Below are positions 31,037-62,290 of a DNA stretch of 64,000 bases, in pieces. How positions within the stretch are numbered: position 1 is the stretch's first letter; each line of letters starts with the position of its first letter. The notes beneath the pieces were generated by a model, which had not been told where the DNA came from, ran no database searches, and worked only from the letters and a program-made list of their open reading frames with translations. This DNA is from Hydrocarboniclastica marina. GTDB lineage: Bacteria > Pseudomonadota > Gammaproteobacteria > Pseudomonadales > Oleiphilaceae. The DNA lies in NCBI RefSeq assembly GCF_004851605.1, contig NZ_CP031093.1, forward strand, positions 3,410,692 to 3,474,691, given 5' to 3'. The position numbers were made by a program, and so were the translations under genes.

Positions 31037-31999
31037 TCACAGTCCTTTCAGCTTGAGCCTGTTTGCATGCTGGCGGAATACCGAGACCGGACTCGTCCCG
31101 AAGCGGCTCACCAGGCCCAGCACCTGGTTAACCTCATCCAAGTGGTTCATGCGATAGTCGTCCCGGATTACCTTGCCCAAATGGCTAGAGCATGTCCCAA
31201 CCATGCCGTCGCTCTCCAGCCCCTCCCTTGTGTACAGCATAGAGGACGCGACAAGACCGAGATCGCCGATGTCCAGAATGTTGGTTGCGGGGTTGGCACC
31301 AGACCAGGAGTAGTAACGAACGCCGTTGTCCTCAAGCTCATTGCCCTCGCCACAAAACCTGGCCGGCATCCCCTGAGGATGGCTGGCGTTGAACTCGGCC
31401 ATGACCCTTGTTGACAGCGCATTCATCGCCGCCAGCGAGTCCTGCTCGTAGCCACCTCCGGAAATGAAATCCAGGAATCCAGCGAACCCGTCGACCACGC
31501 TGGCCAATACATCTCCGGTGAGCGGTGCCTTTTCAGCGACCCCCTGTAGCAGATCTGCCGCCAGCGCTCCGGTATTCGGCCCCGCGACGCTCGTCGCGGA
31601 CGAGACGTACTGCGGATAAACCGAGGCCACGTAGCGGACCGTGGGCCCGCCATGACTGTGACCGATCAGGTTAACTTTCTCAGCGCCGGTTGCCGCCAGA
31701 ATGGTCTCGACCTGACGCGCCAGTTGTTCGCCCCGCAGTTCGGTGCTGTTAGCGGAGGCGACCTGGCTGACGTAGACCTCAGCACCGCTGCGGCGCAACT
31801 CTTCCGGAATGCGATACCAGTAGCCATAGCCGGCTATGTCGTCAAAGCCGAACAGGCCGTGGGCCAAGACGATGGGATAACGGGTTTCGGTGTAGGTGTC
31901 GTTGCTATTGAGCCAGTCGAACCAACCGGCCTGGGCTGGCGCTACACCGGCGCCCAACAGCAGGGCGAACACGGGGCCTAGATAAGTTGTTGTTTTCAT
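31037..31999 (-). CDS. Secreted triacylglycerol lipase (family I.1/I.2, foldase-dependent)
   Basis: This 320-residue lipase has a signal peptide ending near APAQA-GW and YPIVLAHGLFGF. Nucleophile Ser115 lies in GHSHGG, catalytic Asp264 in ESDGMVG, and His286 in NHLDEVNQ with Ca2+ ligand Asp288. Cys216 and Cys270 are placed for the conserved disulfide. ATG 31999 has AGGAG before it, while the open frame extends to 32098. Lipases of this type fold in the periplasm with a LifO chaperone and leave by type II secretion. A LifO gene is nearby at 33151 but beyond a divergent TetR gene. Confidence 0.92.
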   Translation of the reverse strand: MKTTTYLGPVFALLLGAGVAPAQAGWFDWLNSNDTYTETRYPIVLAHGLFGFDDIAGYGYWYRIPEELRRSGAEVYVSQVASANSTELRGEQLARQVETILAATGAEKVNLIGHSHGGPTVRYVASVYPQYVSSATSVAGPNTGALAADLLQGVAEKAPLTGDVLASVVDGFAGFLDFISGGGYEQDSLAAMNALSTRVMAEFNASHPQGMPARFCGEGNELEDNGVRYYSWSGANPATNILDIGDLGLVASSMLYTREGLESDGMVGTCSSHLGKVIRDDYRMNHLDEVNQVLGLVSRFGTSPVSVFRQHANRLKLKGL

Positions 32000-32271
32000 C
32001 TGTTTCTCCTTGATCTTGTTTTTGTTCGATTGCCTTGGGCGTAGATGGAGCTGCTCAAAACATGACCATACTAACTGAGGAACAATTAAAATTAACACTG
32101 ATATTAATATTAACTTTCTATAAAGCCTGCCGATCCGTGGTCGTGAAAACGTTGTGCACTAAGCCTCAGCCCTACGCATACGCTGCCGTGCAGACGCCCG
32201 TTTGGTATGATTGCCAACGCACTGGGGTTGCGAAAAAATTAACATGCGTGTTAAATAATCATGGAGGCAAA
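32000..32271. promoter_or_regulatory. Divergent lipase/TetR promoter region
   Basis: AT-rich 270-base interval between two divergent starts. It contains TTAAC..TATTAATATTAA repeats near 32092-32113 and the palindrome TTAACATGCGTGTTAA at 32239-32254 (14 of 16 symmetric), 17 bases before the TetR start. These are likely regulator sites. Confidence 0.55.
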
Positions 32272-33150: not shown

Positions 33151-34194
33151 ATGCATGCCAGAATAATAAAAACGGGTTTTGTCCTGCTTGCCCTTCTGGC
33201 TATCGTCGTTGGGGTACAGCTTTACCTGACGGAGCCCACGCCACCACGGGAAACAATATCCACCACTTCTGCCCTGTCCACCCCGCCCTCCGCTTCTCCT
33301 GTCAATGCCCCAGCTCCTGTAGCGCCCAAGCACGAAGAAAATCCACTGGCCTATTACGCCGCCATGGGGAGCAGCCTCGGGGAGCGCCCTGAGTCCCTAG
33401 ACGGCACCGCGGTGGACGGCGAACTCAAAGCCGATGCCAACGGCCAGCTCATTGTCTCCCCTGGCGTGCGCCAGGTATTCGACTATTTCCTGACCACGAT
33501 CGGCGAAGAGGACTTCGAAACGGTGAAGGCCAGGCTGGCGCACCATATCAACCGTCACCTCCCGCCGGAAGCGGCGCAGCAGGCTTGGAGGCTGTTCGGG
33601 CAATACATGGGGGCCAAGGAAGCCATATCCAACTTGCCGTCCCACGACGGGACTTCGGCGAGCATGCGTAACGTCGTCGCACAGCGCCGGGCATTGCGCC
33701 AGAGCTGGTTCGACGCCGAGGCCAACGACGCCTTTTTCGGGCTGGAGAACGCCTACGACGAATTCCAGCTGTCCCGTCGGGAAATCATGGAGAGCACTAA
33801 CCTGCCCGAAGCGGAACAACAGGCGCGGCTGACTTCCCTGACAAACGCCCTACCCCATACCCTGCAGAAGATGGTAACCGCCACCCAGGCGCCGGTGGCG
33901 GTGCAGCACAAGGTGGAGCAGCTACGCGAGCAGGGCACCAGCGAGTCGGAGATCCGTGCCTTACGGGAACAGCAATTTGGCCCCGAGGCAGCCGATCGGC
34001 TGGCGCAGTTGGACCAGCGAAAGGCCCAGTGGGAACAGCAATACACCGCTTACCAGCAACAACGCCAGACCATCATCGACAGTGGCATGGCCACGCAGGA
34101 TCGAGAAGCGGAAATCCAGCGCTTGCGGGAGCGACTATTTGACGATTCGGAGATCCGGCGCGTGGAGGCACTGGACCGAATCGGTCAAAACTAA
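33151..34194 (+). CDS. lifO: Lipase-specific foldase (LifO)
   Basis: This 347-residue inner-membrane-anchored steric chaperone has one TM helix (about 8-26) and an Ala/Pro-rich linker. Mini-domain 1 carries both family signatures: PESLDGTAVDG near 80-90 and RQVFDYFLTTIGEED near 107-121. A long helical, Glu/Gln-rich lipase-binding region ends ...IRRVEALDRIGQN. It should fold the lipase encoded at 31037-31999. Normally the foldase directly follows the lipase in one operon. Here it is on the opposite strand, past a TetR gene. Confidence 0.92.
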   Translation: MHARIIKTGFVLLALLAIVVGVQLYLTEPTPPRETISTTSALSTPPSASPVNAPAPVAPKHEENPLAYYAAMGSSLGERPESLDGTAVDGELKADANGQLIVSPGVRQVFDYFLTTIGEEDFETVKARLAHHINRHLPPEAAQQAWRLFGQYMGAKEAISNLPSHDGTSASMRNVVAQRRALRQSWFDAEANDAFFGLENAYDEFQLSRREIMESTNLPEAEQQARLTSLTNALPHTLQKMVTATQAPVAVQHKVEQLREQGTSESEIRALREQQFGPEAADRLAQLDQRKAQWEQQYTAYQQQRQTIIDSGMATQDREAEIQRLRERLFDDSEIRRVEALDRIGQN

Positions 34195-59121: not shown

Positions 59122-60216
59122 TCAGGCACGTGAATGACCCAACGCGCCCGTGGCGGGAGAAAAAGCTCGGACCCGTTCGCCGTAATTCTGGCAAAACTGG
59201 GCGGGGGAGAGCCCGGTCCATCGCTTGAAGGCGTGGGAGAAACTCGACGCTTCTGTATACCCGAGCTCATCGGCAACCTGGGGTATGCCTTCGCCTGAAA
59301 GCAGGCGTTCGCGTGCATACTCGATCAGCACAGTTTCCCGTACCTGCCGCCAGCCAGTTCCCTCTTCGCGCAGTCGCCGTCGGGCGCTGCGTTCCGACAG
59401 GTTGAGGGCCACGGCCGCTTGGCGGAAAGAGCAGCGCCAGTTTCCGTTTTGCTGCAGGAAGCTTCTGATCTCGTCTGTCAGGCTGCCGGGAAGGCGTCTC
59501 CGGTCGATCGTTTCCTGGCAGCGGCGTTCACATTGGGCCTGGGTGAAAGCATTGGCCTGGGAGAAGCCGAGTTGCAGGATATCGGGCCGCAGGAAAAGAC
59601 GGGTCGTGCTTTTTCCTACTTGGAGCTCACAACCGTACAAAGATTCAGCCCGCTCCATCCCGGAGTGCCAGGGCAAAGCCAGCTCAATAGCGCTTACCCC
59701 AATCGGATGGCCCGAGAGCAGATCCTGATGGATGTTATAGACCATTGCCAGGTCACGCCCGATCAGAAAAGCTGTAACAGCCGGAGGCAGGTGATCATGG
59801 AGCATCTCCACGACGGGACTGACACCATTCATCTTCAGTTGGTAGCGCACCAGAGGAAAGCCGACTTGCGTGAATCGGGCGCTCCACTCAGCGGCCTGGC
59901 GGCCATTGGCCGCGCTCATTATTCCCAGGCCGAGGATTCCTAAAGATGAAAGGTGCTGCTCCAGTCCTACATCAAAGCCCCGAGTGAAGTCCTGCCCCAG
60001 CGTTTCGCAGATTTTCTGGATCAGTTTGAGTTCCTGCCAGGCTTCGATCTCTGCGTCCGGGTCGGCGAGCTGCATAGCGGTTACAGCCGCCTCCCGCAAA
60101 CAGACGTCTTTTTCCAGCCCGTGCGCGACGGCGTAGGCGATCAGTTGCCGCAAACCGGCTATCCCTAACCGATAGCGGTCCGCCACTGAGTGTGATGAGT
60201 GTGCCTGCGGTTTCAT
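59122..60216 (-). CDS. AraC-family regulator (Arabinose-bd N-domain type)
   Basis: This 364-residue protein has an N-terminal ligand domain typical of OruR/ArgR-like AraC proteins (GLEKDVCLREAAV..., LGLGIMSAANGRQAAEWSARF) and a C-terminal double helix-turn-helix (VALNLSERSARRRLREEGTGW and VADELGYTEASSFSHAFKRWTGLSPAQF). It is divergent from the SGNH hydrolase and LifO-like gene pair and lies about 210 bases from it, so it is a plausible regulator of that pair. Confidence 0.88.
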   Translation of the reverse strand: MKPQAHSSHSVADRYRLGIAGLRQLIAYAVAHGLEKDVCLREAAVTAMQLADPDAEIEAWQELKLIQKICETLGQDFTRGFDVGLEQHLSSLGILGLGIMSAANGRQAAEWSARFTQVGFPLVRYQLKMNGVSPVVEMLHDHLPPAVTAFLIGRDLAMVYNIHQDLLSGHPIGVSAIELALPWHSGMERAESLYGCELQVGKSTTRLFLRPDILQLGFSQANAFTQAQCERRCQETIDRRRLPGSLTDEIRSFLQQNGNWRCSFRQAAVALNLSERSARRRLREEGTGWRQVRETVLIEYARERLLSGEGIPQVADELGYTEASSFSHAFKRWTGLSPAQFCQNYGERVRAFSPATGALGHSRA

Positions 60217-60424: not shown

Positions 60425-61195
60425 ATGATACTCAAGCATGGATCTTTCGCTGAAAATATCTCCGCGAAATGGCGCAGCGCCGTACTGGTCTGCCTCGCAA
60501 TAACACTGACCGGCTGTGGTCAGCTCGGCCCGCTCTTAAGCAACGACAAGGTGACTGACGCTGATAACGACGAGGTCGTGTTTATCGGCGACTCTATCTT
60601 CGCGTTATCGGGCAAGATCCAGGACGAACTTGAAGAAAAGGCGGGGCAAACCTTCCGCCGTTATACAGTCTCAGGCGCAGAGTTAAGTGGCACCGGCGCC
60701 ATTGCGCCTTCGATCCCAGAGCAATTCCGGGAAGCCTACGGTGACAACCCGAACATCAAAACCATGGTGGGCGATGCTGGCGGCAATGACATCCTGCTGC
60801 CAGCTATTGCTTTTGACCCCAACAAGTGCAAAACCCGCTGGTACCAATTCGGCGGCCTTAGCCAGAGCTGCAAGGATATGATTGACGACCTGTACGTCGA
60901 GGGTGTCGATTTTCTCAACGAGGTTTCCGATTCCGGTGTCGAGAACGGGGTTCTGCTAGGGTACTACTACACCAAAAATGGCCTTTTCCGCCTGGCGTCT
61001 TTGAAAGAGGCTGTGGACTATGGCAATCAGGTACTCGCCAGGGCCTGCCGTAATTCAACCCTGGACTGTACCTTTGTCGACCCTCGTAACGTGATCGTCA
61101 ACAGCGATATCATTTTCGACGGCATCCACCCAGCCGATAGCGGATCCGAGAAGCTTGCGGAGCTGATTTGGCCAGAACTGGAACCTTTGCTCTAA
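60425..61195 (+). CDS. SGNH/GDSL-family lipoprotein hydrolase
   Basis: This 256-residue protein has a lipoprotein signal (TLTGCGQL, Cys31). The hydrolase blocks are in order: block I VVFIGDSIFA with nucleophile Ser57, block II Gly in YTVSGAELSG, block III GGNDILLP with Asn121, and block V FDGIHPADS with Asp232 and His235. The catalytic set is complete. It would be a membrane-bound esterase or lipase facing the periplasm or cell surface. A LifO-like gene starts 63 bases downstream, unusual for this fold. A divergent AraC regulator precedes it. Confidence 0.88.
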   Translation: MILKHGSFAENISAKWRSAVLVCLAITLTGCGQLGPLLSNDKVTDADNDEVVFIGDSIFALSGKIQDELEEKAGQTFRRYTVSGAELSGTGAIAPSIPEQFREAYGDNPNIKTMVGDAGGNDILLPAIAFDPNKCKTRWYQFGGLSQSCKDMIDDLYVEGVDFLNEVSDSGVENGVLLGYYYTKNGLFRLASLKEAVDYGNQVLARACRNSTLDCTFVDPRNVIVNSDIIFDGIHPADSGSEKLAELIWPELEPLL

Positions 61196-61258
61196 CCCAT
61201 ATGGGCGCCGGCGGCCTTATTACAGGCGCCGGCCGCCACGCACTAATCGGTACAGTAA

Positions 61259-62290
61259 ATGTCAAAACGCCGTTATGTTGGCCTCTCAGTATTTCTCCTC
61301 ATCACCGTCTCTCTGGCCTTTTTTTTTGCTATCCCGCCCGAGCAAGAGACTACCCCTTCCCCAGCCGCCAAGGATTACCCCGATTCCGTCGTTGCCGAGA
61401 CGACTGGCGCCGACAAGGTTAACGTGGTCGACGCTGCCCAACTGGTAGAGCGTATTGCGGTTCGCTTCCTTGAGACATACGGCGACACCATTGATCAGCC
61501 AGCCACTCAGGCACAGCTTTTCGAAGAGCGGCGACTTTTACTCTCAAAATACCCGAGCCGAGGCGCGGCCCTGTTTGAAGATGCGTTGGCGCTGGCGTTT
61601 CCGGAACTCAAGGACCAGATTCTCGCCCTGCTCGCGAAGCTGAGCCTGTACTACGAATGGCTTGATGAGCAGGAACTTCGGCTACAAGGGCTGGAAACTC
61701 TGCAACGCCAGGCGGCGGTTTGGCAGAAACGCGAAGAAATCTTTGGGCAGTTGGCCAGCCAGCTATGGGCTGATGAGGAAAACGCCATTGAGAAAAAATC
61801 GGAAGCCTTCCAGCAGGAACTTACGCGCCTCAATGAGGCTGAGCACCTGTCTCTTCAGGAGCTTGCCTATCAGCTCCAGGCCACCGTTGACAATCTTTAT
61901 GACGATGACCTTGCGACCCGGATGACTGGCGCCGGTACCATGGGACGAACGCTTTTCAGTATGAACAGCGTGCAGAATCAGTTGAAATCGCTGCCTAATG
62001 AGGAGCGGCAGGCCAAAATAAACGAACTACGCCGTCAACTGGGCTATCCCGAAGATGCGGTGGAACGTCTGGCCAAGCTGGACCAGGAACGGGAGCAAAA
62101 ATGGCAGAACGGCGAAGCGTACATGGCCCAACGCCAGCAACTCCAACAGAGCCTTTCCGGACGCGAATTGGATAACGCTATGCAACGGCTACGACAGGAA
62201 TATTTCGGCTCGTCCGCGCCGACGATTGCCCGGGAAGAGGAAGAAGACTTCTTTCGCTTTGAGCGGGGTCGTCGTTACGGCGTCAACTGA
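61259..62290 (+). CDS. Divergent lipase-foldase (LifO)-like protein
   Basis: This 343-residue protein has an N-terminal TM anchor (about 8-25), a Pro/Thr-rich linker and a long helical Glu/Gln-rich body. Its C-terminal half (LGYPEDAVERLAKLDQERE and DNAMQRLRQEYF) closely resembles the lipase-binding part of LifO at 33151. The mini-domain 1 signatures are lost: no PxSLxGT, and the RxxFDYFL position reads ERIAVRFLETYGD. It follows the SGNH lipoprotein gene and probably assists its folding, which would extend foldase function to a new client fold. This is inference. Confidence 0.75.
   Translation: MSKRRYVGLSVFLLITVSLAFFFAIPPEQETTPSPAAKDYPDSVVAETTGADKVNVVDAAQLVERIAVRFLETYGDTIDQPATQAQLFEERRLLLSKYPSRGAALFEDALALAFPELKDQILALLAKLSLYYEWLDEQELRLQGLETLQRQAAVWQKREEIFGQLASQLWADEENAIEKKSEAFQQELTRLNEAEHLSLQELAYQLQATVDNLYDDDLATRMTGAGTMGRTLFSMNSVQNQLKSLPNEERQAKINELRRQLGYPEDAVERLAKLDQEREQKWQNGEAYMAQRQQLQQSLSGRELDNAMQRLRQEYFGSSAPTIAREEEEDFFRFERGRRYGVN

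Follow-up and report, generated by a model that had tools for sequence, protein, structure and literature searches.

A Lif-like protein subfamily linked to SGNH-fold lipoprotein hydrolases, a probable steric foldase with a new kind of client

Lif foldases are a standard case of a dedicated steric chaperone. PMC13304423 assigns them to lipases of the alpha/beta-hydrolase fold in subfamilies I.1 and I.2; it treats an ordinary lipase of subfamily I.1 together with its chaperone and, as a separate matter, a GDSL autotransporter. In the portion of PMC13381987 used for comparison, the foldase LipH is described as a flexible crescent, in which stable contacts with the client come from MD2 and transient ones from MD1, and the Lif signature is given as RXXFDY(F/C)L(S/T)A. 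In PMC titles and abstracts, a scope that leaves most subscription journals outside, no pair of a Lif-like foldase and an SGNH protein was found described.

A pair of this kind is encoded in the window, the whole 64,000-nucleotide stretch of Hydrocarboniclastica marina DNA that was analysed. The gene of an SGNH-fold lipoprotein hydrolase is followed by that of a Lif-like, membrane-anchored helical protein, here named LIFX. With Lif/LifO proteins (Lif of B. glumae, 2ES4; LipB of A. baumannii, 9G8U; LipH of P. aeruginosa) LIFX shares a membrane anchor, a linker predicted with low confidence and helical mini-domains; they are its nearest solved fold, it matches PF03280, and its gene lies beside a hydrolase gene. 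Unlike these proteins, LIFX lacks the RxxFD(Y/F) signature, carries a conserved C-terminal tail that the five aligned canonical proteins do not show, has an SGNH lipoprotein instead of a secreted alpha/beta lipase as its partner, and appears to differ in overall arrangement in the predicted model. As both RxxFDY and the alpha/beta lipase partner are missing, LIFX is not a classical Lif. It probably represents a new subfamily of Lif and acts as a steric foldase, with the SGNH lipoprotein encoded just upstream as its client.

The gene pair and its products

Both genes were found where the preliminary description had placed them (Table 1). They are co-directional, share one reading frame and stand 63 bp apart at the end of the window. 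An AraC-type regulator gene (window 59122-60216, minus strand) is divergent from the pair.

Table 1. Coordinates of the gene pair, of its conserved parts and of the canonical lipase/Lif set in the window
Feature	Position	Strand	Evidence or conservation
SGNH-fold lipoprotein hydrolase (proposed client)	60425..61195	+	256 aa; sequence, model, alignment
Cys31, predicted lipidation site of the lipobox (LTGC)	60515..60517	+	C in 125/127 aligned rows
Catalytic Ser57 (GDSIF)	60593..60595	+	S in 125/127 aligned rows
Asn121 (GGND)	60785..60787	+	N in 127/127 aligned rows
Asp232 to His235 (DGIH)	61118..61129	+	D and H each in 127/127 rows
LIFX, Lif-like foldase subfamily protein	61259..62290	+	343 aa; PF03280, fold, neighbourhood
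Predicted N-terminal membrane helix of LIFX, residues 3-24	61265..61330	+	helix 251-272 of the joined model; hydrophobic stretch
All-helical, presumably periplasmic Lif-like part, LIFX residues 56-343	61424..62287	+	predicted models, fold searches
Conserved LIFX C-terminal tail (EE...FFRF.R.RRYGVN), last residue Asn	62234..62287	+	alignment
Canonical lipase/Lif set, another ORF between	31037-32098 and 33151-34194	- and +

The SGNH protein scores 22.8 bits against Pfam Lipase_GDSL_2, under the cut-off of 32.9, and despite this score its model clearly has the SGNH fold, being aligned with two GDSL esterases, EstL5 8IK1 and 7E16, at Z 19.1 and an rmsd of 2.9-3.1 over 190 residues, with TesA at Z 17.5 and with PatB at Z 17.1. 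The preliminary description had called its Ser57/Asn121/Asp232/His235 set intact, and the 127 rows of the alignment (96 distinct by their last 140 residues) agree: the two gaps at Ser57, like those at Cys31, belong to short C-terminal fragments (L022, L107). The block glycine, G89, is conserved in 113 of the 127 rows, the remainder being 12 gaps, one S and one E. Strict text patterns gave lower counts over 97 rows (GDS 93, GND 96, D-x-x-HP 90, lipobox 92) because they were too strict. By its lipobox with Cys31 the SGNH protein is a predicted lipoprotein; N-terminal stretches were inspected for the lipobox in 36 loci. The residue after Cys31 is Gly, which fits outer-membrane sorting by the +2 rule. 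Fold and catalytic set are common to the window protein and the SGNH/GDSL esterases EstL5, TesA and PatB. Unlike these, it is a predicted lipoprotein with two invariant cysteines, Cys135 and Cys149, is linked to a foldase-like gene, and scores under the Pfam cut-offs.

LIFX of the window passes the cut-off of Pfam Lipase_chap (PF03280) with 39.7 bits against 25.7, while one relative (L023) scores 21.4 bits, under the cut-off, and another (L038) has no match; judged by such scores, the SGNH-linked subfamily is at the edge of the PF03280 model. The match to a canonical Lif profile spans 92 columns (E 2.9e-6) and is confined to the C-terminal part, where all 16 invariant LIFX positions are also found. 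The sequence xGxN forms the last four residues in 89 of 93 distinct SGNH-linked LIFX proteins and in 20 of 25 distinct proteins of a second, lipase-linked branch treated below. Two signatures, RxxFDY and PxSLxGT, had been described beforehand as lost. The loss of the first stands: searched as R-x-x-F/Y-D-Y/F, it is present in 9/9 canonical Lif ORFs (five distinct proteins, two with FDY and three with FDF) and absent from SGNH-linked (0/121) and lipase-linked (0/25) LIFX ORFs alike. It is also absent from the PF03280 proteins of two further loci, L154 and L155. The loss of the second does not hold as a marker, and SLxGT was rejected as a mark of the subfamily since only one of the nine canonical ORFs, the window's own, has it; it occurs in 1/121 SGNH-linked LIFX ORFs.

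Folded alone with 75 rows, LIFX was predicted to be all helical (pLDDT 89.4, pTM 0.60). Among 350,542 PDB chains, the top two in Foldseek were the Lif chains of 2ES4 (probability 1.00 and 0.99; E 0.013 and 0.019), and the other 48 rows listed had a probability of at most 0.23. In VIA-align the leading structures were likewise LipB 9G8U (Z 7.7 over 233 residues) and 2ES4 (Z 7.6 over 218 residues), although the tool itself notes that a Z such as 7.7 counts as low among helical proteins. Both structures aligned with LIFX over most of their length at an rmsd of 16-19 Å, and the overall arrangement in the predicted model either differs from that of Lif or is uncertain. A flexible crescent, as in LipH, would fit the high pLDDT with low pTM and the large rmsd. 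Lif likeness in the PDB was seen by fold search only: phmmer of LIFX against PDB sequences returned no foldase, and neither did a 28-row LIFX profile. The membrane anchor and the helical client-binding-like part that the protein had been said to keep are borne out by the predicted N-terminal helix and by the Lif-like fold matches, with a low-confidence linker after the helix (pLDDT <50 at 273-303 of the joined model). In M. algicola DG893 (L157:5821-6672, also L079), about 60 residues at the start of the LIFX helical domain are missing, although the SGNH gene next to it is whole.

The SGNH-LIFX stretch was also folded as one chain, with an alignment of 36 in-frame relatives. This single prediction of tethered proteins reached a pLDDT of 83.8 and a pTM of 0.73. 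With assumed domain terms, a free-floating SGNH domain would be expected to give a pTM of about 0.53, and a value of 0.73 would need a mean SGNH-LIFX error of about 8 Å or less. Judged from pTM alone, the two proteins appear to dock, in line with the complex envisaged beforehand, in a chain whose tether could itself favour docking. When the joined model was used for a fold search, SGNH chains took up the results, which are therefore uninformative on LIFX.

Conservation of the pair across genomes

Baited with nothing but the SGNH profile, public genomes yielded 123 confirmed relatives, and the best 80 of these 123 were kept. LIFX was encoded within 500 bp of the SGNH gene at 79 of the 80, on the same strand and with SGNH first in 77 of the 79. 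The exception among these best 80, L113, is a MAG contig on which SGNH is present without LIFX in the stretch seen; the following gene looks by eye like DnaK. By NCBI rank the kept loci belong to Pseudomonadota (45), Thermodesulfobacteriota (19) and Myxococcota (16), and they include Marinobacter, Hahella, Vibrio, Desulfobacterota and myxobacteria. Thirteen of the 16 Myxococcota loci are from MAGs merely titled Deltaproteobacteria, so that this label is unsure; the other three are from one Myxococcota MAG, Pyxidicoccus and Myxococcus. When the non-overlapping ORFs of the 80 loci were clustered, SGNH and LIFX each turned up in 78 loci as well as in the window; two SGNH genes and one LIFX gene had been lost to the overlap filter, L113 is without LIFX, and the next commonest gene family beside the pair reached 14/80 loci. 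A conserved neighbourhood, proposed in the preliminary description as a check on the pairing, is therefore kept in Pseudomonadota, Thermodesulfobacteriota and named myxobacteria.

In the family of the window's genome, LIFX as bait found a match in 63 of 163 genomes. The 66 loci examined from this side comprise 41 of the SGNH-linked and 25 of the lipase-linked branch, a count that leaves out two fragments in G092 (L071) and a weak second match in G089. An SGNH gene lies within 500 bp at 40 of the 41 SGNH-linked loci, in 38 cases on the same strand and first. The samples of 41 and 79 loci overlap in genomes. Taken together, they place SGNH within 500 bp at 119/120 SGNH-linked LIFX loci. A search by similarity to the window's lipase gave a hydrolase within the same distance at none of the 120; at five of them (three genomes) a canonical lipase/Lif set lies further downstream. 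A search of the 163 family genomes with SGNH matched 72 (38 strong, 3 weak, 31 short). All 38 with a strong match (at least 289 bits) have a LIFX match, the three with a weaker one (G146, G086, G087; 77-103 bits) have none, and in the remaining 31 the match is a short C-terminal stretch of about 20 bits. Outside the family the pair is patchy, as in 369 genomes drawn evenly from the class (at most five candidates scored in each) LIFX was found in the window's own genome only. Public genome contigs scanned with the LIFX sequence alone yielded no match, where the SGNH profile succeeded.

The distance matrices of SGNH and LIFX correlate with an r of 0.66 over 76 pairs, the largest value among 500 shuffles being 0.11, and this shows co-inheritance, not binding. 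Several loci depart from the simple pair. At L042:5998-7077 (minus strand) LIFX has no SGNH gene in the 10.5 kb seen and lies beside an Lnt-like gene, in a genome that carries two other SGNH/LIFX sets. Four loci (L038, L039, L043, L044) have two adjoining SGNH lipoprotein genes and a single LIFX. In M. salarius R9SW1 (L107, L022) the SGNH gene is spread over two frames beside a shortened LIFX, which looks like joint decay of the pair.

A second LIFX branch and a proposed change of client

The lipase-linked branch of LIFX (L046-L070) has an alpha/beta hydrolase like the window's lipase within 500 bp at 25/25 loci, on the opposite strand in 20 of them, and an SGNH gene within that distance at none of the 25. 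These hydrolases carry signal peptides. The branch resembles SGNH-linked LIFX over 282 aligned columns (E 2e-66) and in having the same kind of C-terminal tail, whereas its partner is an alpha/beta hydrolase and not SGNH; three members searched against Pfam had no Lipase_chap match. Because this branch adjoins alpha/beta hydrolases instead of SGNH, a single family of foldases appears to have clients of two enzyme folds.

In a quick tree of 78 rows, thinned from 119, a branch with an SH-aLRT of 92 sets all 59 SGNH-linked rows apart. The 12 lipase-linked rows are their neighbours, but the tree does not establish them as a single group. Canonical Lif is joined by a very long branch (8.66), and the position of the root is uncertain. 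The distinct foldase subfamily supposed in the preliminary description is backed by this tree, by the absence of RxxFDY and by the conserved C-terminal tail. The simplest story suggested by the tree, its root being unsure, would be a single client change from alpha/beta lipase to SGNH. We lean towards the view that a steric foldase family switched client fold, so that the same helical scaffold would fold alpha/beta-hydrolase lipases or SGNH lipoproteins according to branch, and that steric folding of the Lif type would not be tied to the lipase fold and would act on a membrane-bound lipoprotein before it is sorted. If this is true, a comparison of the two branches, whose clients differ in fold, would make it possible to ask what a steric chaperone reads in its client. 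It might also be the reason why expression of such SGNH hydrolases alone could fail, and LIFX could serve as a helper for co-expression.

The role of LIFX and the other Lif genes

As the SGNH protein keeps the lipid cysteine and LIFX has a predicted membrane helix, both proteins would be found on the inner membrane. The SGNH client would be exported and lipidated at Cys31, and would therefore stand first in the inner membrane, in which LIFX would be anchored by its N-terminal helix and flexible linker. The crescent of LIFX helices may then wrap the SGNH domain and help it to reach the active fold, possibly with a disulphide between the invariant Cys135 and Cys149, and LIFX would afterwards release the protein to the outer membrane or for secretion. 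The folding activity, the order of these events, the route after release and the disulphide are what we infer. That LIFX could be a folding partner of the SGNH hydrolase, extending the LifO role to a new enzyme fold, had been suggested beforehand and is supported by the conserved neighbourhood and the apparent docking, and a single LIFX for two SGNH genes fits a reusable helper. Points against the foldase reading are the missing RxxFDY, the LIFX of L042 without SGNH, the SGNH of L113 and the weaker SGNH matches of G146, G086 and G087 without LIFX, the shortened LIFX beside a whole SGNH in M. algicola, the modest fold scores (Z 7.7, E 0.013, rmsd 16-19 Å) and the outcome of the 369-genome draw.

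Pairing and docking would look alike for any tight partner, and the missing RxxFDY leaves room for a changed role. LIFX might then be a lasting partner, a tether that retains the finished SGNH protein at the inner membrane or an inhibitor that blocks its activity until release. This is rather unlikely in view of the Lif-like fold and C-terminal sequence match, of the four loci in which a single LIFX accompanies two SGNH genes, and of the other LIFX branch, whose position beside signal-peptide alpha/beta hydrolases is the ordinary Lif arrangement. More doubtful still is that LIFX guides the sorting or secretion of the SGNH lipoprotein and is not needed for its fold. The lipid cysteine, kept in every aligned row but two fragments (125 of 127), the predicted membrane helix of LIFX and the Lnt-like gene found both near the L154 foldase/SGNH set and near the LIFX of L042 that lacks an SGNH neighbour would suit such a role; the nearest fold, however, is that of steric foldases, and with no third family in more than 14/80 loci a sorting gene is not a general companion of the pair. 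Canonical lipase/Lif sets in the genome and the clear co-inheritance of the pair could also be read as two neighbours joined by shared inheritance only, with LIFX serving the ordinary lipases, which is very improbable given that adjacency persists over distant groups (79/80 and 40/41) while other neighbours change, that the canonical lipases found have their own Lif nearby, and that no window-like lipase lies within 500 bp of the 120 SGNH-linked LIFX loci.

The window genome has four PF03280 matches, so LIFX is one Lif-like protein among several. The normal lipase/LifO set that had been noticed at 31-34 kb of the window is present (Table 1), and a second canonical Lif is encoded beside a lipase at 2.97 Mb. 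A third Lif-like ORF of 270 aa (L072:5959-6771, minus strand; about 2.88 Mb in the same genome) matches PF03280 at positions 3-89 only, with neither a lipase nor an SGNH gene in the 12 kb seen and, by eye, no continuation in the other two frames. In addition, a PF03280 foldase, a gene with an FGE-sulfatase domain, a distant SGNH gene without a lipobox and an Lnt-like gene occur together at L154:2970-7471 and L155:2082-6505; at a third locus like these, L156, the contig ends before the corresponding place. The L154 foldase scores 84.2 bits against PF03280 (Pfam was run on L154 only). At both L154 and L155 the PF03280 protein is encoded two genes from the distant SGNH protein, and this is a second, separate and looser link between a foldase and an SGNH protein.
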